This document shows, one piece after another, positions 276 to 10,031 of a stretch of DNA of 10,031 nucleotides. A model generated the notes under the pieces. The model had not been told where the DNA came from, searched no databases, and saw only the letters and a program-made list of their open reading frames with translations. The stretch is from Elusimicrobiota bacterium. Lineage in GTDB: Bacteria; CG03; SLGR01; PWQF01. Within the stretch, counting starts at the first letter, position 1, and every line of letters begins with the position of its first letter. The translations under genes were made by a program, and so were the position numbers. Location: contig PWOI01000057.1 in assembly GCA_003557485.1 (NCBI GenBank), forward strand, positions 1 through 10,031, in the 5' to 3' direction.

Positions 276-306
276 TGTTATCACTGCCGTCCAGCCCGGG
301 GAGCCA
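276..306 (+). repeat. 31-bp direct repeat, outer copy (bracket of cassette 1)
   Basis: This 31-bp tract is identical to 1502-1532. The two copies bracket the first MNT/HEPN cassette with a period of 1226 bp. Its last nine bases (298-306) are the complement of the core TGGCTCCCC, which is found at all four cassette junctions. The sequence diverges immediately after the core, as expected for a site-specific recombination junction. The tail GGAGCCACAT (299-308 by the shared run) also matches the end of the tRNA fragment at 9033-9059 and the bases just after it. Confidence 0.85.
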
Positions 307-327
307 CATCTTTTCTCGATGATAAAA

Positions 328-378
328 AAGGAGGCGCAATGTCTATTCCTGTTCCCATTTCTATTGAATGACCTCCTT
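328..378 (+). promoter_or_regulatory. hairpin enclosing an 11-codon mini-ORF with a strong ribosome binding site
   Basis: AAGGAGG (328-334) sits four bases before an ATG at 339. The frame encodes MSIPVPISIE and stops at 371. Immediately after it, CCTCCTT (372-378) is the exact complement of the Shine-Dalgarno. Pairing would form a 7-bp stem with a 37-base loop and sequester the site. It lies just upstream of and overlaps the MNT1 -35 hexamer (377-382), so it would not be in the MNT1 transcript. It may belong to a read-through transcript or be the degraded start of a lost gene: AAGGAGGCGC also precedes the recombinase partner gene. Function unknown. Confidence 0.35.
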
Positions 379-405
379 GACAGAAACAAATTCGTTAATT
401 ATAGT
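377..405 (+). promoter_or_regulatory. sigma-70-type promoter of the first MNT/HEPN operon
   Basis: TTGACA (377-382) is separated by 17 bp from TATAGT (400-405), a near-consensus sigma-70 promoter. Transcription would start around 411-413, giving a leader of only about 23 bases before the ATG at 435. The -10 hexamer lies inside the upstream operator (393-410) and the start site at the edge of the downstream operator (413-430), so a bound repressor would block polymerase directly. Confidence 0.75.
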
Positions 406-430
406 TAACATATGTTAAGTAAAATTTACA
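393..430 (+). promoter_or_regulatory. tandem operator pair in front of MNT1
   Basis: Two 18-bp sites are separated by 2 bp. The downstream one (413-430) reads TGTTAAGTAAAATTTACA. The upstream one (393-410) reads TGTTAACTATAATTAACG on the minus strand. They meet in a perfect 14-bp palindrome, TTAACATATGTTAA (405-418). The same site type, duplicated with the same 2-bp spacing, lies before MNT2 (4808-4845). Position over the -10 and start region suggests repression. The winged-helix domain of the downstream gene is the obvious candidate binder; that part is inference. Confidence 0.65.
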
Positions 431-434
431 TAAT

Positions 435-1070
435 ATGGTTATAGAAAGATTACTAGATAGAATATTAAATACGCCTTCAAAGCTAAAAATCATCCGCTTG
501 TTTATTTCAAAAAGGCAGGATTTTGTTGCAACAGGGCGTGAAATTGCAAGGAAAACGGGACTTTCTCCGCCCGGTGCGCATACCGCTTTAAAAGAATTAT
601 ATGCCGAGGATGTTTTGAAGCGGGATATTATAGGAAAGCATCATCTGTACCGTCTGAATATAAATAACAGAAATGTGAAAAATATCCTTATTCCAGCATT
701 TACAAAAGAGATTTCTATAAAGAAGGATATTGAAAACTTTCTAAAAGGGAAAATAAAAGAGTACAAGTTAACAAATGAAATTGTCTCACTATTACTATAC
801 GGCAGCATCTCAAAAGGCAGAGATACCCCGGATAGTGACGTAGATGTTGCTGTGGTGACGGGGGATGATGTAAACCTGGAAAAAATAGAGACTGCATTTA
901 CAGATAAAATATCATCTGAATTCCGTGAGTATTTTGGTCTCCATCTTGATCCATATATAAAGAAAAAGAAAGAATTTGTTAAATTTCTTAATAACAAAAC
1001 ACCGCCTGTTTCAACTTTAATAAGGACATATACGCTTGTGTATGGGAAAGACCTGACGGATATTAGGTAA
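435..1070 (+). CDS. winged-helix/MNT-type nucleotidyltransferase (antitoxin-like), copy 1
   Basis: This 211-aa protein has an N-terminal winged-helix domain (about residues 10-80, core GREIARKTGLSPPGAHTALKEL) fused to a minimal nucleotidyltransferase domain (about 110-205). The NTase signature is YGS with G123-S124, then D135 and D137 in SDVDVAVV, and a third carboxylate D172 in FGLHLD, so the metal-binding triad looks complete. In the known MntA/HepT systems the MNT protein AMPylates and neutralises a HEPN RNase; a similar role is inferred from the HEPN gene 2 bp downstream. The winged helix is an extra, probably for autoregulation at 393-430. The ATG is taken from the N-terminal match to MNT2; no Shine-Dalgarno is visible before it. 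About 53% identical to the protein at 4167-4805 by ungapped eye alignment. Confidence 0.85.
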   Translation: MVIERLLDRILNTPSKLKIIRLFISKRQDFVATGREIARKTGLSPPGAHTALKELYAEDVLKRDIIGKHHLYRLNINNRNVKNILIPAFTKEISIKKDIENFLKGKIKEYKLTNEIVSLLLYGSISKGRDTPDSDVDVAVVTGDDVNLEKIETAFTDKISSEFREYFGLHLDPYIKKKKEFVKFLNNKTPPVSTLIRTYTLVYGKDLTDIR

Positions 1071-1072
1071 AA

Positions 1073-1477
1073 ATGGGCGCAGGAAAAATAAAGGTCAGAG
1101 AGGAAGATAAATCAAAAGCTTTAAAGTATCTTAAAAAAGCGGAAGATAATCATTCTCAGATGCTTAAATCTTTCAGAGAGGGTAATTATAACGCTTCGTC
1201 AACCCTGGCAATACAATGCGTTATTTCTGCAGCGGATGCTGTTTGTATACATGAGAAAGGCATTCGTTCGATATCACAAAATCATCTTGATCTGTGCGAA
1301 CTTATAAAATCTATACCGCTTCCCGAATCTAGGAGCAAGAGTAATTCCCTGAAGAAAATCATTTCAAAAAAGAACCTTATACAATATGAAAGCAGGAGTA
1401 TTTACGGCAGGGAAGCAGATGAAATAGTAAAAAATGCAAGCAGATTTTTCAGGTGGGCTGCTACTGTTTTAAAATAG
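1073..1477 (+). CDS. HEPN-domain protein (candidate RNase toxin), copy 1
   Basis: This 134-aa, mostly helical protein is of HEPN size and starts 2 bp after the MNT gene, so the two are surely co-transcribed. The candidate catalytic motif is R65-x5-H71 (RSISQNH), within the R-x4-6-H range of HEPN RNases. The Tyr two residues after His that is AMPylated in HepT (RX4HXY) is absent: here the sequence is H-L-D. A conserved C-terminal block, LIQYESRSI, is shared exactly with the second copy (3759-4166); overall identity is about 60%. Its last 17 bases overlap, tail to tail, the 3' end of the recombinase gene. Toxin activity is inferred from family and context; it could instead be a substrate-binding partner of the NTase. 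Confidence 0.8.
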   Translation: MGAGKIKVREEDKSKALKYLKKAEDNHSQMLKSFREGNYNASSTLAIQCVISAADAVCIHEKGIRSISQNHLDLCELIKSIPLPESRSKSNSLKKIISKKNLIQYESRSIYGREADEIVKNASRFFRWAATVLK

Positions 1478-3065
1478 AATTGAATCTTCTGTAAAAATTT
1501 ATGTTATCACTGCCGTCCAGCCCGGGGAGCCAGTTCTTCTTTTGACGGATTTTTACCCTTTTTTTTAATTTTTTTTTCGGGGTGCCCTTGGCACCTAAAG
1601 AGGGGGGTAAGTCTTTTTCTGAAAAAAGATCGTCGGAAAAATCTCCTGAAGAGATAAATCTGTAAGGCTCTCTAAAGGAAAACCTCAGCTTCTTCTCTTT
1701 TAGAAAAAAGTTCGAACCTGTTTTTTGGATAATTTTAGAGATTTCATCATAATTTTTTCCAGAAATAATTTTCTCGACGGAGTTGCAGGTGTTTACTGCT
1801 TCTTTTGCGAGTTCGAACCACTCCAGGTGCCCTTCGTCTAAATCGCTGATTAGCCCATTCAGTTCGGCCTTTCTTTCAATCATTTTTTTCTTCCTGCTCT
1901 GAAATTCTTCTTCGCTGAGATACTCAGCAAGAAAAGTATCTATTAGTTTTTCCATCTGTCCGGAAACTGCGGCGAGCTCGTCCCGGGCCTTGAGAATCTT
2001 TCTTTCTATTTCAGATTCATCAACGGTTTTATGTTCTTCTAATTGATTTAGAATAAGGGCACTGTCCTCATCATTAATATATATTGATTCAAGTGCCTCG
2101 GTGATCTGTGCCGCAAGTTCTTTTTCCTCAATGTATCCCTGCGAACATTTGCCTTTTCTCTTGGTGCAGTGGTAGTAAATATATTTTCCCTTCTTTTTTT
2201 CTGCGGTAATCATTGCGCCGCATTCGCCGCAGCTCATATAGCCTCTGAAAGCGAAATGATACTGCGCCTTTCTTGTAGGTTTTGATCTTTCCTGAAAAAC
2301 TTCCTGAACCCTGTCGAAAAGGGACTTTGTTATTAGAGGAGGGTGACTTCCTTCAAAGAGCTCTCCCTTAAGACTAAAAACGCCATAGTAAAAGGGGTTT
2401 TGAAGGGTTCTGACCATTATGCATTTTGAGATTGGCTTATTATAACGGCTTTTTAAACCGATCTGCTCTGATATCCGGCATATTTCACGGATTGAGTGCT
2501 CTCCATCTGAGTATACTTCAAATATTTTCCTGACCAGCGGGGCTTTTTCAGGGTCAAGGACAATGGTGTGGTTTCTTAAGTCGTTGTTATATCCTATAGG
2601 AGCCCATCCAGGAAACTCTCCTCTCTTAAGTTTCTCTCTTATTCCCCGCTTAACGTTTTCGGACAGATTATCGATATAATATTTGGATTGTCCAAAGGCT
2701 ATGTTAAGCATGAATTTCCCGTATGCCGAGTTGTCAAAGCGGAATGTCGGGAATTTAAGGTCTTTTATCATTCCGGTGTCTAAAAGAAAAAGTATCTTGC
2801 CCCCATCAATGGAATTTCTGGCCAGCCTGTCCGGGTGCCAGGCAATTATTGAGTCCGCCTCACCGGCCTCAATGGAGGTAAGCATTTCGTTGAAAATTTT
2901 TCTTCCAGGCTTTTTAGAAGTCCGAGCCTCTGTGTATTCCCTGATAATTGTAAGGTTCTCCTTTTTAGCCAGTTCGCGAAGTTCTCTAAGCTGTGAATGA
3001 ATAGATAGAACCTGTCTGTCTTCTGCATCGCTGGATTTTCTGGCGTAAAGGAGGTACCTATTCAT
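1461..3065 (-). CDS. large serine recombinase (resolvase/invertase superfamily)
   Basis: This 534-aa protein has the large serine recombinase layout. The N-terminal resolvase domain (1-145) contains YARKSS with the nucleophile probably S11, and HPDRLARNSID (77-87). A recombinase domain follows (about 150-265, with GWAPIGY and NPFYYGVF). A zinc ribbon (C279, C282, C300, C307) and a charged coiled coil (about 345-410) come next. Such enzymes recombine short attachment sites, which fits the core repeats around it. The ATG overlaps the stop of the upstream small gene by 4 bp (ATGA), implying translational coupling. The last 20 or so residues, from W512-L-P514 on, are encoded by the 31-bp junction repeat and by antisense of the HEPN gene, so the C-terminus depends on what lies beyond the core. 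A run of nine T at 1569-1577 is eight A in the inverted copy; with eight, the protein would stop near residue 499. Confidence 0.9.
   Translation of the reverse strand: MNRYLLYARKSSDAEDRQVLSIHSQLRELRELAKKENLTIIREYTEARTSKKPGRKIFNEMLTSIEAGEADSIIAWHPDRLARNSIDGGKILFLLDTGMIKDLKFPTFRFDNSAYGKFMLNIAFGQSKYYIDNLSENVKRGIREKLKRGEFPGWAPIGYNNDLRNHTIVLDPEKAPLVRKIFEVYSDGEHSIREICRISEQIGLKSRYNKPISKCIMVRTLQNPFYYGVFSLKGELFEGSHPPLITKSLFDRVQEVFQERSKPTRKAQYHFAFRGYMSCGECGAMITAEKKKGKYIYYHCTKRKGKCSQGYIEEKELAAQITEALESIYINDEDSALILNQLEEHKTVDESEIERKILKARDELAAVSGQMEKLIDTFLAEYLSEEEFQSRKKKMIERKAELNGLISDLDEGHLEWFELAKEAVNTCNSVEKIISGKNYDEISKIIQKTGSNFFLKEKKLRFSFREPYRFISSGDFSDDLFSEKDLPPSLGAKGTPKKKLKKRVKIRQKKNWLPGLDGSDNINFYRRFNSILKQ
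1502..1532 (+). repeat. 31-bp direct repeat, inner copy (cassette 1/recombinase junction)
   Basis: This tract is identical to 276-306. It lies 25 bp after the HEPN1 stop, and its core (1524-1532, complement of TGGCTCCCC) abuts recombinase-specific sequence. On the minus strand it supplies recombinase codons for WLPGLDGSDN. With the outer copy it brackets cassette 1 in the same orientation, so recombination between the copies would release a 1226-bp circle carrying MNT1 and HEPN1. Confidence 0.85.
1523..1710 (-). repeat. 188-bp inverted repeat, left arm (recombinase 3' end)
   Basis: Read on the minus strand, this segment runs from the codons for LKEKKLRF to the core TGGCTCCCC and matches the plus strand at 3480-3667. 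The differences are a few substitutions near the interior end, a synonymous change (ttaccc against ttacca), one base in an A-run, and a compensating one-base indel near the interior end. Near-identity over 188 bp, including synonymous sites, implies a recent duplication or ongoing homogenisation. The arms enclose the recombinase and its partner and end exactly at the shared core. Confidence 0.9.
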
Positions 3066-3364
3066 ACTATTCTGGGTCTTACGGTCCTCAGCATCTTAAG
3101 AGTTTTGTTTACCTCTCTGATCTTTTTCTCGGTTTCTCTTCTAATGGATATCTCTCTTATGAGCTGCCTGGGCTCTTCTTTACCTATATAGTCGTGCTTA
3201 AGCTTACCGCCTTTTGTATGGCTGTGATAATAATAAAACTGATTACCGATTTTTCTTTTTGTAACAGTGCCCTTTGGCAGAGGTTTAAGTTTTTCCTTTA
3301 AGCGCATGAGCTCATTATTGTATTCTGAATGTTTTTCTTTTAAGTATTTCTTAATCTCTTCCAT
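3062..3364 (-). CDS. small DUF6788-like protein, recombinase partner
   Basis: This 100-aa basic protein is helical at both ends, with a central strand-like segment FYYYHSHTKGGKLKHDYIGK (residues about 43-62). The preceding LPKGTVTKRKIG, then YYY and a YIGK motif, resembles the DUF6788 family of small uncharacterised proteins; this assignment is from memory of the family pattern. A strong ribosome binding site AAGGAGG (complement of 3373-3379) lies 8 bases before the ATG, and a good promoter precedes it. Its stop overlaps the recombinase start by 4 bp. The basic composition and coupling suggest a DNA-binding accessory or directionality factor, but no function is demonstrated. Confidence 0.75.
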   Translation of the reverse strand: MEEIKKYLKEKHSEYNNELMRLKEKLKPLPKGTVTKRKIGNQFYYYHSHTKGGKLKHDYIGKEEPRQLIREISIRRETEKKIREVNKTLKMLRTVRPRIV

Positions 3365-3388
3365 TTTCAGCGCCTCCTTGTATAATTA

Positions 3389-3417
3389 ATTATATAATAA
3401 AAAATATATTATGTAAA
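3389..3417 (-). promoter_or_regulatory. sigma-70-type promoter of the recombinase operon
   Basis: On the minus strand, TTTACA (3417-3412) is followed after 17 bp by a perfect TATAAT (3394-3389), about 25 bp before the AT-rich start of the small gene. The -35 hexamer is the end of TCAGCTTTACA, an 11-bp match to one of the MNT2 operators (4808-4825), so the recombinase may share a regulator with the MNT genes. The promoter lies between the inverted arms and would flip together with the genes. Confidence 0.75.
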
Positions 3418-3443
3418 GCTGAAAAAGAAAAAATGTTCGAAAA

Positions 3444-3486
3444 TAATCCTCTAAGGATTATAAGCCTCGGCAGGGGCTGCTTTTTT
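3444..3486 (+). terminator. tandem hairpins followed by T6, possible intrinsic terminator or small RNA end
   Basis: A perfect 7-bp stem TAATCCT/AGGATTA with a 3-base loop (3444-3460) is followed at once by a 6-bp stem AGCCTC/GGGGCT-like (3463-3478, one G-T pair, loop GGCA) and then GC plus six T (3481-3486). This is the shape of a rho-independent terminator for plus-strand transcription, yet no plus-strand gene lies just upstream. It may end a short unannotated RNA running divergently from the recombinase promoter, or insulate the recombinase segment. The T-run coincides with the interior end of the inverted repeat. Confidence 0.45.
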
Positions 3487-3667
3487 CTTAAAGGAGAAGA
3501 AGCTGAGGTTTTCCTTTAGAGAGCCTTACAGATTTATCTCTTCAGGAGATTTTTCCGACGATCTTTTTTCAGAAAAAGACTTACCACCCTCTTTAGGTGC
3601 CAAGGGCACCCCGAAAAAAAATTAAAAAAAAGGGTAAAAATCCGTCAAAAGAAGAACTGGCTCCCCG
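3480..3667 (+). repeat. 188-bp inverted repeat, right arm
   Basis: This is the inverted partner of 1523-1710. Both arms end at the core TGGCTCCCC plus one G, beyond which the flanks are unrelated (left GGCTGGACGG, right TTTTTAATTT). The orientation means recombination between the arms, by the serine recombinase or by homologous recombination, would invert 1523-3667 and swap the recombinase 3' flank. Confidence 0.9.
3486..3625 (+). pseudogene. orphan copy of the serine recombinase 3' end
   Basis: The plus strand here encodes the recombinase C-terminal residues KLRFSFREPYRFISSGDF and onward to GAKGTPKK, without the rest of the gene. An A-run of eight instead of nine shifts the frame and gives a stop at 3623-3625 (ending GTPKKN). 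Upstream of 3480 the similarity ends abruptly. It may be a remnant of a second recombinase, or, more likely, a functional arm of the invertible segment that gives the recombinase an alternative 3' end after inversion. Confidence 0.7.
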
Positions 3668-3701
3668 TTTTTAATTTTGTTCGAACCTGGGCTGTGGAAA
3701 A
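3642..3701 (+). repeat. 60-bp direct repeat, inner copy (recombinase/cassette 2 junction)
   Basis: This tract matches 5259-5318 at 59 of 60 positions, the one difference being G or T just after the core. It contains a recombinase-side arm (ending AAGAAGAAC), the core TGGCTCCCC (3658-3666) and an outer arm containing TTGTTCGAACCTGGGCTGTGG. Similarity to the outer copy stops at 3702, and the HEPN2 stop follows 57 bp later. With the outer copy it brackets cassette 2 with a period of 1617 bp. Confidence 0.85.
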
Positions 3702-3758
3702 GTCTGACTGTTAAGAGTGCTTTAAATTGGGTGTTGTGGAAAAAAGTAAACAAAAAAA

Positions 3759-4166
3759 TTATTTTTCGATTACAGAAACAACCCAGATATAAAATCTGCT
3801 CGCCCATTTAACGATCTCTTCAGCTTCGGTTTGGGTGATGCTTCTGCTTTCATACTGGATCAGATGTTTCTTCGCAATAATTCTTTTGAGAGAATTGGAT
3901 TTATTGGACGCTTCTTTGAGCGGGATTGATTTAACAAGGTCACATACATCTCTGTGATCCTGGGAAACAGATCTAATTCCCAGTTCATGGACACAGATTG
4001 CATCAGCTGAAGATATGGCGCATTGAACAGCTAATGTTGAGGCGGCGTTAAAATTTACATTTCCCAAAGCAGATAACATCTGTGCGTGGTTATCAGAGGC
4101 TTTTTTCAGGTAATCTTTTGAGGAGGCCGGGTTTTCTGTTTTAGTTTTTATTTTGCGCGCAGACAT
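3759..4166 (-). CDS. HEPN-domain protein (candidate RNase toxin), copy 2
   Basis: This 135-aa protein aligns without gaps to the HEPN protein at 1073-1477 with 81 of 134 identical residues by eye. It keeps R65-x5-H71 (RSVSQDH), the CAISSADAICVHELGIRS block and LIQYESRSI. As in copy 1, no Tyr follows the His (H-R-D), so the Tyr-AMPylation mode described for HepT is not supported by the motif. Its ATG follows the MNT2 stop with no gap, so the genes are tightly coupled. It is read towards the recombinase, mirroring copy 1. The strongest divergence is at residues 11-40 and 111-135, which may reflect partner specificity. Confidence 0.8.
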   Translation of the reverse strand: MSARKIKTKTENPASSKDYLKKASDNHAQMLSALGNVNFNAASTLAVQCAISSADAICVHELGIRSVSQDHRDVCDLVKSIPLKEASNKSNSLKRIIAKKHLIQYESRSITQTEAEEIVKWASRFYIWVVSVIEK

Positions 4167-4805
4167 TTATTTGAGTTCGGTTATATCCTTGCCGTACACA
4201 ACTATGTGGGATTGAATTAAACCAGATACCGGGGGCAACTGTTCCCTGATCCGCCTGATGAACTCTTCTTTACTTTTAATATACACATCAAGATGTGCTC
4301 CGAAGTAATTGTAAAAATCGTTGGAAATTTTCTCACGAAATATCTTCTCAACTTGATTAATCTCCGAATCATCCTTTACTACAATGGCTATGTCTACATC
4401 ATTGATATTATTACTATTCTCTCTCACAAAACTGCCATATAAATATACTGAAGATATTTTGTCAGTAATATTTGATCTAAACATCCGGTCTTTTATGAAT
4501 TGAGATATATCTTCTTTGAGGGAGAGTTCTTTAGTAAAAGCGGGTATAAGTATTTCCTTTACTAGCCTGTTATTAGAATTCAGGCTGTAGAGGTGCTGTT
4601 TTCCTATGATGTTTAGTTTAAGAATATCCTGGCTGTATAAATCCTTTAGCGCGGTATGCACCGCCGGTGCGGTAAAACCTGTTTTTCTCGCGACTTCTCT
4701 GCCATTAGCAGTATAATCCTCTCTCCGCGAAGTAAACAGCCTGATTATTTTGAGTTTCAGGTCAGTGTTCAATATGTTATCAAGCGTCTGTTTGTTAATG
4801 CTCAT
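4167..4805 (-). CDS. winged-helix/MNT-type nucleotidyltransferase (antitoxin-like), copy 2
   Basis: This 212-aa paralogue of MNT1 is about 53% identical and collinear. The winged helix is about residues 10-81 (GREVARKTGFTAPAVHTALKDL). The NTase domain has YGS (G124-S125), D136 and D138 in NDVDIAIV, and D173 in FGAHLD. The catalytic carboxylates are kept, but the usual Gly and Ser of GSxxxG...SDxD are replaced (ENSNNIND), so nucleotide handling may differ from copy 1. The stretch between the winged helix and the NTase and the region near residues 182-191 are the most divergent. The start lies 2 bp after the operator pair, and no Shine-Dalgarno is seen. Role by analogy: it neutralises HEPN2 and represses its own operon. 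Confidence 0.85.
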   Translation of the reverse strand: MSINKQTLDNILNTDLKLKIIRLFTSRREDYTANGREVARKTGFTAPAVHTALKDLYSQDILKLNIIGKQHLYSLNSNNRLVKEILIPAFTKELSLKEDISQFIKDRMFRSNITDKISSVYLYGSFVRENSNNINDVDIAIVVKDDSEINQVEKIFREKISNDFYNYFGAHLDVYIKSKEEFIRRIREQLPPVSGLIQSHIVVYGKDITELK

Positions 4806-4807
4806 AT

Positions 4808-4845
4808 TGTTAAGTCAGCTTTACAACTGTAAAGTATACTTAACA
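4808..4845 (-). promoter_or_regulatory. tandem operator pair in front of MNT2
   Basis: The plus strand reads TGTTAAGTCAGCTTTACA (4808-4825), then AC, then TGTAAAGTATACTTAACA (4828-4845), whose complement is TGTTAAGTATACTTTACA. The whole is a 38-bp dyad with only three mismatched pairs. Each half is itself a near-palindrome. Compared in gene direction, ATGTTAAGTA-nnn-TTTACA here matches the MNT1 site (412-430) at 17 of 19 positions. Size, 20-bp centre-to-centre spacing and location against the start codon suggest binding of two winged-helix dimers. Confidence 0.7.
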
Positions 4846-4860
4846 TAAGTAGGGCTGGTT

Positions 4861-4866
4861 TGTCAA
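4861..4866 (-). promoter_or_regulatory. probable -35 element of the second MNT/HEPN operon
   Basis: A consensus TTGACA is read on the minus strand 56 bp before the MNT2 start. The best -10 at 17-18 bp spacing (TTAAGT or TAAGTA) is poor, while a good TATACT inside the operator lies too far away (22 bp). The promoter is therefore likely here but its exact -10 is uncertain; either choice overlaps the operator pair. Confidence 0.4.
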
Positions 4867-4901
4867 TATGCTTATCACAAGTATTGGCGGGCTAAGTCTG
4901 G

Positions 4902-4941
4902 CAACCGGGAGTTTGCAAGTAGTACAACCGGGAATTTGCAA
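4902..4941 (+). repeat. two 17-bp iterons at 23-bp period (block A)
   Basis: CAACCGGGAGTTTGCAA (4902-4918) and CAACCGGGAATTTGCAA (4925-4941) lie 23 bp apart start to start. They match the four-unit block at 8860-8945, and the first unit is identical to the unit at 8929. They lie upstream of the second MNT/HEPN operon. They could be the multiple end repeats of a decayed insertion sequence (IS21-type ends have such repeats) or binding sites for a regulator. No transposase is in the window. Confidence 0.7.
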
Positions 4942-5001
4942 TTGTGCCTAATTTTGGTGGGGATATTGAGTGATGGAAAAGAGGATATATAAACACTGTC
5001 A

Positions 5002-5031
5002 TCTTAATTTAAGGCGTAAATGCTATTGGTT
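5002..5031 (+). repeat. 30-bp exact repeat, copy A
   Basis: This 30-bp tract is identical to 9009-9038. With the iterons upstream, it forms a longer diverged direct repeat (about 4902-5037 against 8906-9044). In copy B the tract runs into a clean tRNA 3' end; here the corresponding bases (TTTGGATCCC) no longer fit a T-loop, so copy A looks like the decayed one. Confidence 0.8.
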
Positions 5032-5040
5032 TGGATCCCC

Positions 5041-5258
5041 GAAATTTAAATTTTCAAACCCTGTTAATAACTTACGCAAACAGCATTCATGGGAATACAA
5101 CGTTGTTAATAAAATAATCACAGTTTTGTTCATTGAGTAAATAATTGAAATTAGGAACACAACTCAATTTTCCTGAGGTCTATCTACTACAGAAACTATA
5201 GGAAACTCTCAGTTTGTAATAAAATCTACCGAAAAAAATTATAAAACAGAGCAAAAAA
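5041..5258. other. non-coding spacer with a weak recombinase-end remnant
   Basis: No gene is seen. The last 30 bases or so (from CCGAAAAAAATTATAAAA, about 5229) resemble, with several changes, the poly-A stretch that precedes the core in the recombinase 3' end (3612-3641). The neighbouring 60-bp repeat may therefore be the surviving tip of a third, mostly eroded recombinase 3' end. Confidence 0.4.
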
Positions 5259-5318
5259 CCGTCAAAAGAAGAACTGGCTCCCCTTTTTTAATTTTGTTCG
5301 AACCTGGGCTGTGGAAAA
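5259..5318 (+). repeat. 60-bp direct repeat, outer copy
   Basis: This is the partner of 3642-3701 (59 of 60 identical), with the core TGGCTCCCC at 5275-5283. As at the inner copy, the 3' end of a minus-strand operon follows shortly afterwards (the TPR gene stop at 5393). The ATPase/TPR operon therefore occupies the same position relative to a site as the MNT2/HEPN2 operon does, and it may be a further cassette. Confidence 0.85.
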
Positions 5319-7567: not shown

Positions 7568-8818
7568 CTAGGGCCCGAGAGACCCGATCGGGATTACCGC
7601 AACTCCGTCTTTCCTTGTGTATCCGAAACTCTGTCCCGTTATGATTCCCAGTACTGAAGGCTTACCGCACTTAGCGGTATCTATCTTATCAGCAAAATCA
7701 AGTAGTTTTTCCGCGCTTTCTTCAATTTTTCCCGTACCCAGCTTGATCTCAAATGCCGCCCATGTCCCGTCAGAGCGTTCGATCACAGCATCAACCTCCA
7801 GGCCTACCGCGTCGCGGTAATGGTATACCTTTGCGTCGGAATCCTGCGAGTATACTCGCAAATCGCGGATAACCATCGATTCAAAGAGTAACCCGAACAG
7901 CTGCATATCGTTGAAAAGGCGCTCAGGTGACGCTCGCAGTGCGGCAACAGCCAGAGAGGGATCGATGAAGTGGCGTTTCGGCGATTTTCGAAGTCTGCTT
8001 CTGGACCGCAGATGGGGAGCCCAGGCCGGCTGGTCCTCAATAATCATCAACCGTGAAAGAACTTCAAGGTAATCCCTGACTGTGTCACCATGCAAAGCTG
8101 TATCCGAATCGCCCACATCAGATGCGAGCGTCGCTGCGGAAACGGGTGCTGCAGAGTTTCGCGCAAGAGATCTTAGCAGGAGACCGACTTTTTCGGGATC
8201 GCGTTTTGTCTGATCAACCCGCTTGATATCAACGCGTCTTATTTCTTCTAAATAATCCCTTACCGCCTGTAATGACGTCTGCAAATCAAGGTTCAGATGA
8301 ATGGGCCAGCCGCCTTTACAGATGAATTTCGCCAGATCTTCAGTGGTTAGACCAGGATCCTTGCAGCCTGAGAAAGTAGCGTTCAGCAGATCCCTAAGGG
8401 AAATCTCACCAGATGAATTCCCGGTCTCGATAAGGCTCATGGGTCTCATAATAATGCGTGTCAGGCGCCCGGCCCCGGTGTGCCGGGTAATATCATCGGA
8501 AGGGATAGCAGAACCGGTCAGTATGAACTGGCCCGGCCTTCTTCTGTCATCTACAGTGCGCCGGATATGGTTCCATATCTTAGGTTCAATCTGCCATTCA
8601 TCGATAAGGCGGGGGACCTGTCCTTCAAGAACCAAGTCAGGGGCAACCTGCAGGGCCATCTTCGCATTTTCATCAATATCAAGCAGAACCTCACTTGCCG
8701 CCACCTGTCTCCCGGTGGTTGTTTTCCCGCAGGCCTTGGGGCCCTCTATAACAACAGCCCCGGCAGACTTTAACTGCCTGGCAAGTTCATTATCAACTAC
8801 GCGCGGTAAGTACTTCAT
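7568..8818 (-). CDS. AAA-family ATPase with DUF4143 domain
   Basis: This 416-aa protein is typical of the AAA_14/DUF4143 family. Walker A is at 26-34 (GPKACGKTT), a Walker B-like LIDEWQ at 71-76, and a sensor-like ILTGSA at 99-104. The DUF4143 region is about 195-360. The C-terminus holds GLEVDAVIE (339-347) and FEIKLG (356-361), a pattern like the PD-(D/E)xK fold core. Family members are abundant and largely uncharacterised. The start has a good ribosome binding site, AGGAGGT, directly upstream. It is the first gene of an operon with the SEC-C and TPR proteins, which is not an arrangement I recognise. Its base composition is richer in GC than the MNT/HEPN genes. Confidence 0.9.
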
Positions 8819-8847: not shown

Positions 8848-8876
8848 ATAGTAATACTTAAACCGGGAAAATGCAA
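8848..8876 (-). promoter_or_regulatory. possible promoter of the ATPase operon
   Basis: On the minus strand TTGCAT (8876-8871) and TACTAT (8853-8848) are separated by 17 bp, 30 bp before the ATPase start. Both hexamers are imperfect. The -35 falls inside the first iteron of block B, so a protein bound to the iterons would compete with or contact polymerase. Confidence 0.35.
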
Positions 8877-8945
8877 GCCTTGTAGCCGGCAATTTGCAAT
8901 GATTGCAACAGTGGAAATGCAAGCATTTCAACCGGGAGTTTGCAA
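8860..8945 (+). repeat. four 17-bp iterons at exact 23-bp period (block B)
   Basis: Units start at 8860, 8883, 8906 and 8929, each 17 bp with a 6-bp variable gap. The last is CAACCGGGAGTTTGCAA; the others are degenerate, most conserved in the GG and the TGCAA end. Two further units of the same type lie at 4902-4941. The period is close to two helical turns. The short repeat, degenerate units and 6-bp gaps rule out a CRISPR array. Decayed insertion-sequence end and regulator-binding array are both possible. Confidence 0.75.
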
Positions 8946-9008
8946 TAAATGTTCAGTTCGGGTGGGGATGTTTAGTTCAGAAAATGAAGATAGAAAAATA
9001 CTATGTCG

Positions 9009-9038
9009 TCTTAATTTAAGGCGTAAATGCTATTGGTT
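9009..9038 (+). repeat. 30-bp exact repeat, copy B
   Basis: This tract is identical to 5002-5031. It overlaps the start of the tRNA-like fragment and so may represent the arm of an attachment site next to a tRNA target. Confidence 0.8.
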
Positions 9039-9059
9039 CGAGTCCAACTCGCGGAGCCA
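9033..9059 (+). tRNA. 3' fragment of a tRNA, resembling tRNA-Asn (partial)
   Basis: The tract has a T-arm GG-TTCGAGT-CC followed by AAC, an acceptor strand TCGCGGA, discriminator G and an encoded CCA. An acceptor partner TCCGCGA would be expected at the 5' end, as is common in tRNA-Asn, but it and the D and anticodon arms are not present upstream. The first T-stem base pair is also broken (A opposite C). It is therefore a 27-bp remnant of the kind left at integration sites in tRNA 3' ends. Confidence 0.6.
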
Positions 9060-9217
9060 CATGGTTTTGACCATTATTTTTCTATGCTTAAATAAATTTT
9101 TATTATTTTACATCCCTGTCTTCCAACCCGTAAAAGTATGTATCTCTCCAGTAGAAAAATATAGTTTTTATTCACATAGCTGGTAGTAAAAAGTCAGTAA
9201 AGAGTAGAAATAGGCAA
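9060..9217. other. AT-rich intergenic stretch
   Basis: No gene, repeat or clear hairpin is seen between the tRNA fragment and the promoter of the barrel gene. A plus-strand open frame crossing 8899-9186 runs through the iterons and the tRNA fragment and is not credible as a gene. Confidence 0.5.
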
Positions 9218-9791: not shown

Positions 9792-9944
9792 TTACATTGT
9801 TTGGCCAAGTAATTTGGCAAACCTTATCAGAGCTACAAGCAGATAAGGGATAATTATGTGGTTTAATCCATATGGCATTTGCAATATTAAAACTTTCTTA
9901 TAATAATCCAGGGTTGTGTCAAGATTTTTCTGTAATTTAGCCAT
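9792..9944 (-). CDS. small 50-aa hydrophobic/basic protein
   Basis: An ATG preceded by AAAAGGGAAGC opens a 50-codon frame, MAKLQKNLDTTLDYYKKVLI and on to AKLLGQTM. Residues about 27-42 (LNHIIIPYLLVALIRF) form one hydrophobic segment that could be a membrane helix. It begins 10 bp after the stop of the gene running in from the right edge, in the same direction, which suggests an operon. The family is not recognised. The ribosome binding site, the sensible composition and the position support a real gene. Confidence 0.55.
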   Translation of the reverse strand: MAKLQKNLDTTLDYYKKVLILQMPYGLNHIIIPYLLVALIRFAKLLGQTM

Positions 9945-9954
9945 GCTTCCCTTT

Positions 9955-10031
9955 TCAGACTATTGCCATTTCTTTTAGAAACGGCAATTCAATTCCTTCT
10001 TCCTTTACGCTCTTCCCGTCTTCTTCAACAA
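9955..10031 (-). CDS. C-terminal end of a gene entering from the right edge (partial)
   Basis: The minus-strand frame open at the edge encodes 24 complete codons, VEEDGKSVKEEGIELPFLKE then MAIV, and stops at 9955-9957. The codon use is protein-like and the other two frames close quickly. It is too short to name. It is followed by the 50-aa gene with a 10-bp gap. Confidence 0.5.
   Translation of the reverse strand, partial: VEEDGKSVKEEGIELPFLKEMAIV

Follow-up and report, generated by a model that had tools for sequence, protein, structure and literature searches.

The window analysed here is a 10,031-bp stretch of DNA, the entire contig C83 of the draft genome G000 of an Elusimicrobiota bacterium (2.07 Mb, 86.6% complete), in which a large serine recombinase is encoded between two toxin-antitoxin-like cassettes. 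Our analysis indicates that the recombinase unit (1523-3701) quite probably belongs to a group of widespread small integrative elements that insert at the 3′ ends of tRNA genes, and that in this case it lies within a tRNA-Asn array. The recombinase family is widespread, with well over 80 members, and the element family is apparently undescribed. The literature searched, whose coverage left aside bioRxiv preprints and most subscription papers, contained no account of an inverted double-att family or of serine-recombinase cassette arrays at tRNA genes.

Four copies of the 9-bp core TGGCTCCCC were found where the original prediction had placed them (298-306, 1524-1532, 3658-3666 and 5275-5283), and the left two are indeed opposite in orientation to the right two. 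Only 0.08 copies are expected by chance, and none of 200 shuffled sequences reached four. The direct repeats described for the two cassettes were also recovered: an exact one of 31 bp for cassette 1 (276-306 and 1502-1532), and one matching at 59 of 60 positions for cassette 2 (3642-3701 and 5259-5318), which is nested in a longer repeat of 87 bp at 93% identity (3615-3701 and 5232-5318). By genome search and ARAGORN, the core and its flank were identified as the 3′ end of a tRNA-Asn(GTT) gene in contig C174, the sole other copy of core and flank in the genome outside this locus type. This tRNA end is identical over 21 nt to site S1 (289-309, including the flank) and over 18 nt to site S2. Therefore, the direction of each core reflects that of a half site resembling a tRNA end. 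The tRNA-Asn identity had been missed by the original prediction, as had the inverted repeat of the recombinase, a fifth site (9033-9062) and the passage of an open reading frame (ORF) through a core. Intact tRNA-Asn genes are found on other contigs (C174, and C103 of genome G005), and the window itself holds a displaced fragment only. The sites, the arms of the inverted repeat and the recombinase are listed below; S1 is a cassette-cassette junction.

276-330, forward strand: site S1, with left half L_a (276-297), tRNA-Asn core GGGGAGCCA (298-306) and right half R_a ACATCTTTTCTCGATGAT.
1502-1532, forward strand: site S2, attL-like, with an L_a half and core (1524-1532) joined to the recombinase arm; exact copy of 276-306.
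1523-1710, forward strand: left arm of the inverted repeat, P′ half of attP, including the 3′ coding end of the recombinase.
1461-3065, reverse strand: large serine recombinase, 534 aa (PF00239, PF07508 and PF13408, above cut-offs).
3480-3667, reverse strand: right arm, inverted, upstream of the recombinase operon.
3658-3701, reverse strand: site S3, complete inverted attP, with arm, core (3658-3666) and left half L_b containing GTTCGAAC.
5232-5318, reverse strand: site S4, attP-like and oriented as S3, with a 52-nt arm, core (5275-5283) and 35 nt of L_b; 93% identical to 3615-3701 over 87 nt.
9033-9062, forward strand: site S5, a displaced 30-nt 3′ fragment of tRNA-Asn with the T loop, a B-type half; 93% identical to tRNA-Asn of genome G001.

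The longest repeat in the window is an inverted one (1523-1710 and 3480-3667; 97.9% identity over 189 columns, E 4e-88), which brackets the recombinase gene and a small partner gene and contains the 3′ end of the former. Two paralogues are present in the same genome. The one on contig C198 is 70% identical and has a perfect 121-bp inverted repeat reaching both contig ends, and the arm of the one on contig C159 starts about 60 bp past tRNA-Gln. A search of GTDB contigs with a six-sequence alignment found at least 541 stretches encoding relatives, the best 80 of which were kept; their hosts include Omnitrophota, Patescibacteria and others. In 67 of 77 evaluable loci (one viral contig included), the recombinase 3′ end recurs as an inverted copy just upstream of the recombinase start, with a median length of 101 bp and 98.9% identity. 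No such copy was found in 13 viral loci of distant serine recombinases used as a control, nor in the other distant serine-recombinase loci tested, where one further match proved to be a family member (G009). The opposed right-hand cores, previously taken as a feature of this array, are part of this conserved plan of the recombinase family.

An inverted repeat of any kind is carried by 69 loci. In 48 of them, the recombinase gene and a tRNA gene on the other strand adjoin at their 3′ ends, and the reverse arrangement was seen in none of the 69. The abutted genes are those for tRNA-Gln, Ser, Leu, Arg, Asn, Asp, Gly, Ala, His and Trp, and also tmRNA. The abutment holds in all six further copies from two Patescibacteria genomes. 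Both arms terminate at the same tRNA 3′ terminus, and in 44 of the 48 loci the recombinase frame continues past the core and, in antisense, into the tRNA. In the window, the recombinase ORF passes through the core of S2 (TGG CTC CCC, read as W-L-P). An attP inside a serine integrase gene has a precedent in the rumA integrative and conjugative elements (ICEs; PMC4701971).

The half sites differ in the position of a GTTCGAA-like motif, which lies 29 nt from the CCA end in the L_b flank and 24 nt from it in the T loop of the tRNA in 41 of 41 scorable loci, although these are not 41 independent events, since one L_b spacing is common to the family. The window gives the same spacing, with the motif GTTCGAAC at 29 nt in S3, and likewise 29 nt in S4, against 24 nt in tRNA-Asn. 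At one further locus, L208, the shift looks by eye like 4 bp. A structure-based study reported that the distance from the centre to the zinc-ribbon (ZD) motif of serine integrase sites is 5 bp shorter in attB than in attP (PMC3783163). From the 5-bp shift and this rule, we assign the tRNA as the B half and L_b as a P half, which makes the upstream site a complete attP. On this assignment, every element has an additional attP, complete and inverted. The two attP copies, one in the middle site and one split over attL and attR, are two identical sites in inverted orientation.

The L_b flank and core recur, inverted, further out in 24 loci, delimiting elements mostly of 2.5-11 kb. Their cargo, assigned by eye from the proteins, includes genes for type I restriction, other defence-like sets, methyltransferases, lipoprotein-like proteins or a single unrelated gene. 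The record AP024682.1, a genome submitted as complete, has a tandem pair of elements at tRNA-Ser, of which the tRNA-proximal one has a broken recombinase. Among the pairs compared, arm identity is mostly 0.93-1.0 within an element and 0.6-0.85 between many sister elements; for example, L124 and L135 have 1.0 and 0.99 within, and 0.75 and 0.76 between. Arms that are alike within an element and divergent between sisters show that the copies are homogenised and that the arms evolve in concert. The inverted copies, the tRNA abutment, the 5-bp shift, the tandem elements and this concerted evolution are all evident from the sequences.

We propose the following plan for the integrated element: tRNA, core, arm, recombinase (antisense to the tRNA), inverted arm, inverted core, L_b′, cargo, L_b, core and chromosome. 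The outer cores would be ordinary attL and attR sites in direct orientation, and the middle site would be the complete inverted attP. The element would bring the terminal nucleotides of the tRNA along with its own arm, so that the tRNA stays whole. Excision would give a circle with two identical attP sites in inverted orientation, and recombination between them would keep the copies identical, as do the FLP sites of the yeast 2-micron plasmid. Our preferred inference is that such an inversion occurs within the circle, with either the recombinase or RecA responsible. In an element integrated in the opposite direction, the recombinase would be driven from the tRNA promoter; such insertions would be lost, which could explain the one-sided orientation.

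The cassettes of the window have counterparts elsewhere. The MNT/HEPN cassette (339-1481) is repeated at 91.3% nucleotide identity in contig C141 of the same genome, where three L_a-type sites surround AbiE and MNT/HEPN cassettes. On contig C103, from another family of the same order, at least five sites in one orientation lie downstream of tRNA-Asn, with AbiE, DUF4143, Fic/RhuM and methyltransferase cargo. The loci of C103 and C174 are syntenic (porA/porB, beside tRNA-Asn). The AbiE cassette common to C141 and C103 is 92.7% identical; at one edge the homology ends with a site, at the other it stops 11 nt before the site of C141, and C103 has no recognisable site at this second edge. Att-bounded units without an integrase stand in tandem in the window, C141 and C103. 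The L_a pattern was not found in viral contigs. Only serine recombinases are encoded at these loci, and no IntI-type tyrosine integrase was found. The proposal of integron-like capture stands in part: there are cassettes with a common site and arrays of variable cargo, but the core is the 3′ end of tRNA-Asn, which makes this a tRNA-anchored array and not an integron. The array is integron-like in layout and fits an accretion of att-bounded elements.

The window recombinase is probably not the loader of these cassettes, as the original prediction had supposed, because S1, S2 and the sites of C141 and C103 lack the T-loop motif of its own sites and because, at most array sites, the right half (ACATNNTTTT...) is similar to the arm that belongs to a second serine recombinase. 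The latter directly follows tRNA-Asn in C174, and a fragment of it survives beside site s5 in C103. The genome search for core junctions did reveal variable-cargo arrays in C141 and C103, but no window-type arm at their sites. Judging from these site sequences, the second, C174-type recombinase probably serves the L_a cassettes. We propose that the array of MNT/HEPN, AbiE, DUF4143 and Fic/RhuM cassettes would grow at tRNA-Asn by accretion. The L_a cassette ends imitate the last 18 nt of tRNA-Asn, so that each insertion would recreate a tRNA-like landing site, and the window element may have landed beside a cassette for the same reason. In its widest form, offered as a tentative possibility, the proposal is of a serine-recombinase counterpart of the 2-micron plasmid: a circle that might flip between isomers, enter many tRNA genes via the T loop, ferry single genes between minimal genomes (Patescibacteria, Omnitrophota and others) and build the tRNA-Asn arrays.

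Several points weigh against the integrative-element interpretation. Excision, inversion and the role of the second attP are inferred from sequence, and neither a circle nor an inversion was observed. Among 14 genomes of the family, no clean empty site was found for the L124 insertion, only separate tRNAs and no joined site. Free use of both attP sites predicts both orientations, and the other one is seen in C159 alone. Two attP sites are not recombined by classical serine integrases, so that inversion driven by a large serine recombinase (LSR) would be unusual. RecA could be the homogeniser of the arms. The identities between sister elements come from end-gap-free alignment, with a few pairs inflated. 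In the window itself, no distal att end of the element was found, that is, no L_b-core end in the expected orientation; S4, complete, attP-like and oriented as S3, is unexplained by the family plan, and S1 and S2 are without the T-loop motif.

An alternative is that the window recombinase itself inserts and excises the MNT/HEPN cassettes at the TGGCTCCCC cores. All cores are identical, direct repeats bound the cassettes, S3 and S4 are matched attP-type sites flanking cassette 2, and the arrays of C141 and C103 vary in cargo. The sites without the T-loop motif, the right halves like the C174 arm and the lack of a window-type arm in C141 and C103 argue against such loading, and the identical cores are explained by the common tRNA-Asn target; we regard it as unlikely. 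A passive accretion of decayed att-bounded elements at tRNA-Asn, with nothing mobile at present and repeats homogenised by homologous recombination alone, is only slightly easier to accept and still doubtful. Tandem piling of decayed elements that keep their att sites is well known (PMC5704250), and several copies are broken here (C159, G005:C107 and LSR2 of L104). However, the recombinase of the window has an unbroken ORF and conserved catalytic residues, cassettes are 91-93% alike between contigs and families, the arms are about 99% identical in most family members, and there are up to 5-6 copies per 0.6-Mb genome.

The main rival to inversion in the circle is an operator role, in which the recombinase would bind its own attP in the promoter region and repress itself. 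In most loci, the second attP does lie between the recombinase start and the cargo, a likely promoter region, but repression needs a binding site of about 50 bp, not 75-330 bp that are near-identical both ways, and concerted evolution implies physical exchange. We consider this role improbable. False inverted copies created by collapsed or mis-joined metagenome contigs are a concern in principle, as most of the genomes are metagenome-assembled and many contigs break off within an arm or right next to one. Such an artefact is very hard to reconcile with the occurrence of the copies in long contigs of independent projects, including AP024682.1 and a 685-kb contig, and with arms that differ by a few bases in many loci. 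A plain inversion switch for cassette expression was rejected, since the inverted site is family-wide and its orientation one-sided. Terminal inverted repeats of a transposon were rejected as well, the outer boundaries being tRNA 3′ ends and the far element ends being in direct orientation.

The integrative element favoured here resembles the large serine integrases of phages, ICEs and integrative and mobilizable elements (IMEs) of the A118/LI, phiC31 and Bxb1 type in its Resolvase, Recombinase and zinc-ribbon domains, in the 5-bp motif shift between attP and attB half sites and in its very short core repeats. It differs in targeting the conserved T-arm and 3′ end of many tRNAs and in keeping a second, inverted, complete attP when integrated. 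Moreover, an element may consist of the recombinase and one cargo gene, and transfer or replication genes were not noticed in the smallest ones. Serine recombinases that target tRNA genes are described as rare, such as those of phiRSM1 at tRNA-Ser and the Mycobacterium actinomycete ICEs (AICEs) at tRNA-Leu (PMC3218068). These also enter a tRNA 3′ end, but each group uses one tRNA, whereas the present family has an inverted attP and uses Gln, Ser, Leu, Arg, Asn, Asp, Gly, Ala, His, Trp, Thr and tmRNA genes. Serine integrases entering tRNA genes have thus been described as rare or unknown, and here is a family with many tRNA targets. It follows the 5-bp attP/attB rule against the T loop, a motif in nearly every tRNA, and its members thus form a supply of integrases whose target sites can be predicted. 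The family further hints at a route by which largely uncultured bacteria with small genomes could gain defence systems and individual genes, and raises the question of why a second, inverted attP is kept and homogenised.

The array shares with tRNA genomic islands and arrays of cis-mobilizable elements (CIMEs) serial insertion and integrase-less cassettes that keep their att sites, and it may share with them an intact tRNA plus a displaced fragment. Such islands usually use tyrosine integrases (PMC4383910), and the array differs from them in that its cassettes are toxin-antitoxin or defence units of about 1-3 kb with a common leader. Like integrons, it has same-orientation cassettes with mostly co-oriented cargo, a repeated site and a recombinase nearby. 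Unlike integrons, it has no tyrosine integrase, is anchored at tRNA-Asn, and its site would be a duplex att site of the tRNA-3′-end type, not a folded attC. The predicted circle would resemble the yeast 2-micron plasmid (FLP/FRT) in having two identical sites in inverted repeats and two halves, but the element uses a serine instead of a tyrosine recombinase and integrates into the chromosome. No Rep-like or partition genes were noticed by eye among the ORFs of the small elements, for which no systematic search was made. The staphylococcal cassette chromosome (SCC; CcrAB/C) also combines a serine recombinase with tandem cassettes, and CcrB is the nearest NCBIfam model, but at 100.5 bits against a cut-off of 900, and the target of the element is tRNA, not rlmH.

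The identity of the recombinase as a serine recombinase was backed by Pfam (Resolvase, Recombinase and zinc-ribbon domains). Its S11, a catalytic-type serine, is invariant in the alignment and the window ORF is intact. Homologues of the small partner ORF stand beside the recombinases in C198, C159 and G001:C102. Pfam supported the two paralogous wHTH-MNT and HEPN gene pairs that had been read from the sequence, apart from the second HEPN protein, which lacks a Pfam hit and was assigned by its similarity to the first. The MntA model gave 30 and 26 bits for the two MNT proteins against a cut-off of 60, and HEPN just exceeded its cut-off in cassette 1 only. The AAA-DUF4143 protein is a probable cargo protein. 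The remaining features of the window are as follows.

339-371, forward strand: leader micro-ORF MSIPVPISIE*, read from the sequence.
435-1070, forward strand: cassette 1 wHTH-MNT nucleotidyltransferase, antitoxin-like (PF18765 4e-8, PF01909 1e-7; PADLOC PDC-M05A 2e-14).
1073-1477, forward strand: cassette 1 HEPN protein, toxin-like (PF05168 6e-5, above the gathering score).
3062-3364, reverse strand: small partner ORF, with weak similarity to DUF6788, below cut-off.
3759-4166, reverse strand: cassette 2 HEPN-like protein, without a Pfam hit; inverted nucleotide match to the cassette 1 HEPN gene (1127-1467 and 3772-4112).
4167-4805, reverse strand: cassette 2 wHTH-MNT nucleotidyltransferase (PF18765 2e-7; PDC-M05A 1.5e-13).
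7568-8818, reverse strand: AAA-DUF4143 protein, candidate defence system PDC-S01 (PF13635 3e-35, PF13173; PADLOC PDC-S01 2e-70).

The leader micro-ORF is conserved, has a strong ribosome site and stands between the cassette site and differing cargo genes. Leaders like MSIPVPISIE also follow sites T2 and T3 in C141 (L008) and site s2 in C103 (L160). It could be a regulatory leader or a part of the site.

Further observations were made on the recombinase family. Single Patescibacteria genomes of about 0.6 Mb hold 5-6 such recombinases (loci L073-L143 and L190-L198), a large load for their size. At L073, L114, L117, L127 and L130, the 3′ arm has no recognised tRNA beside it and several of these arms abut a GTTC-type motif, which suggests secondary targets or entry into the L_b of another element. 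In L104 (13535-15090), a broken recombinase is accompanied by arms and att sites that remain nearly identical, so homogenisation, or selection acting on the sites, may persist after the gene has decayed. In the viral contig L144, whose recombinase is 58% identical, genes for a DNA methyltransferase and a possible restriction enzyme separate the recombinase from the inverted arm. Therefore, cargo can lie inside the arms in the subclade of the window recombinase. This contig was considered as a free circle and rejected, as it is not circular and stops within an arm. Identity with a known plasmid or phage was likewise rejected, the closest plasmid and phage proteins being just about 25-30% identical.

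Two other repeats were noted in the window. A direct duplication of about 120 bp (4903-5045 and 8861-9061; 78% identity) contains iterated AACCGGGAATTTGCAA motifs. The DUF4143 gene lies downstream of one copy; the other, which has no gene, is likely a remnant of a lost cassette. Near the contig ends, a 68-bp repeat is identical in the window (9912-9979) and C159 (L050; 4927-4994). It is probably an insertion sequence that broke the assembly, and it interrupts the recombinase gene in C159.

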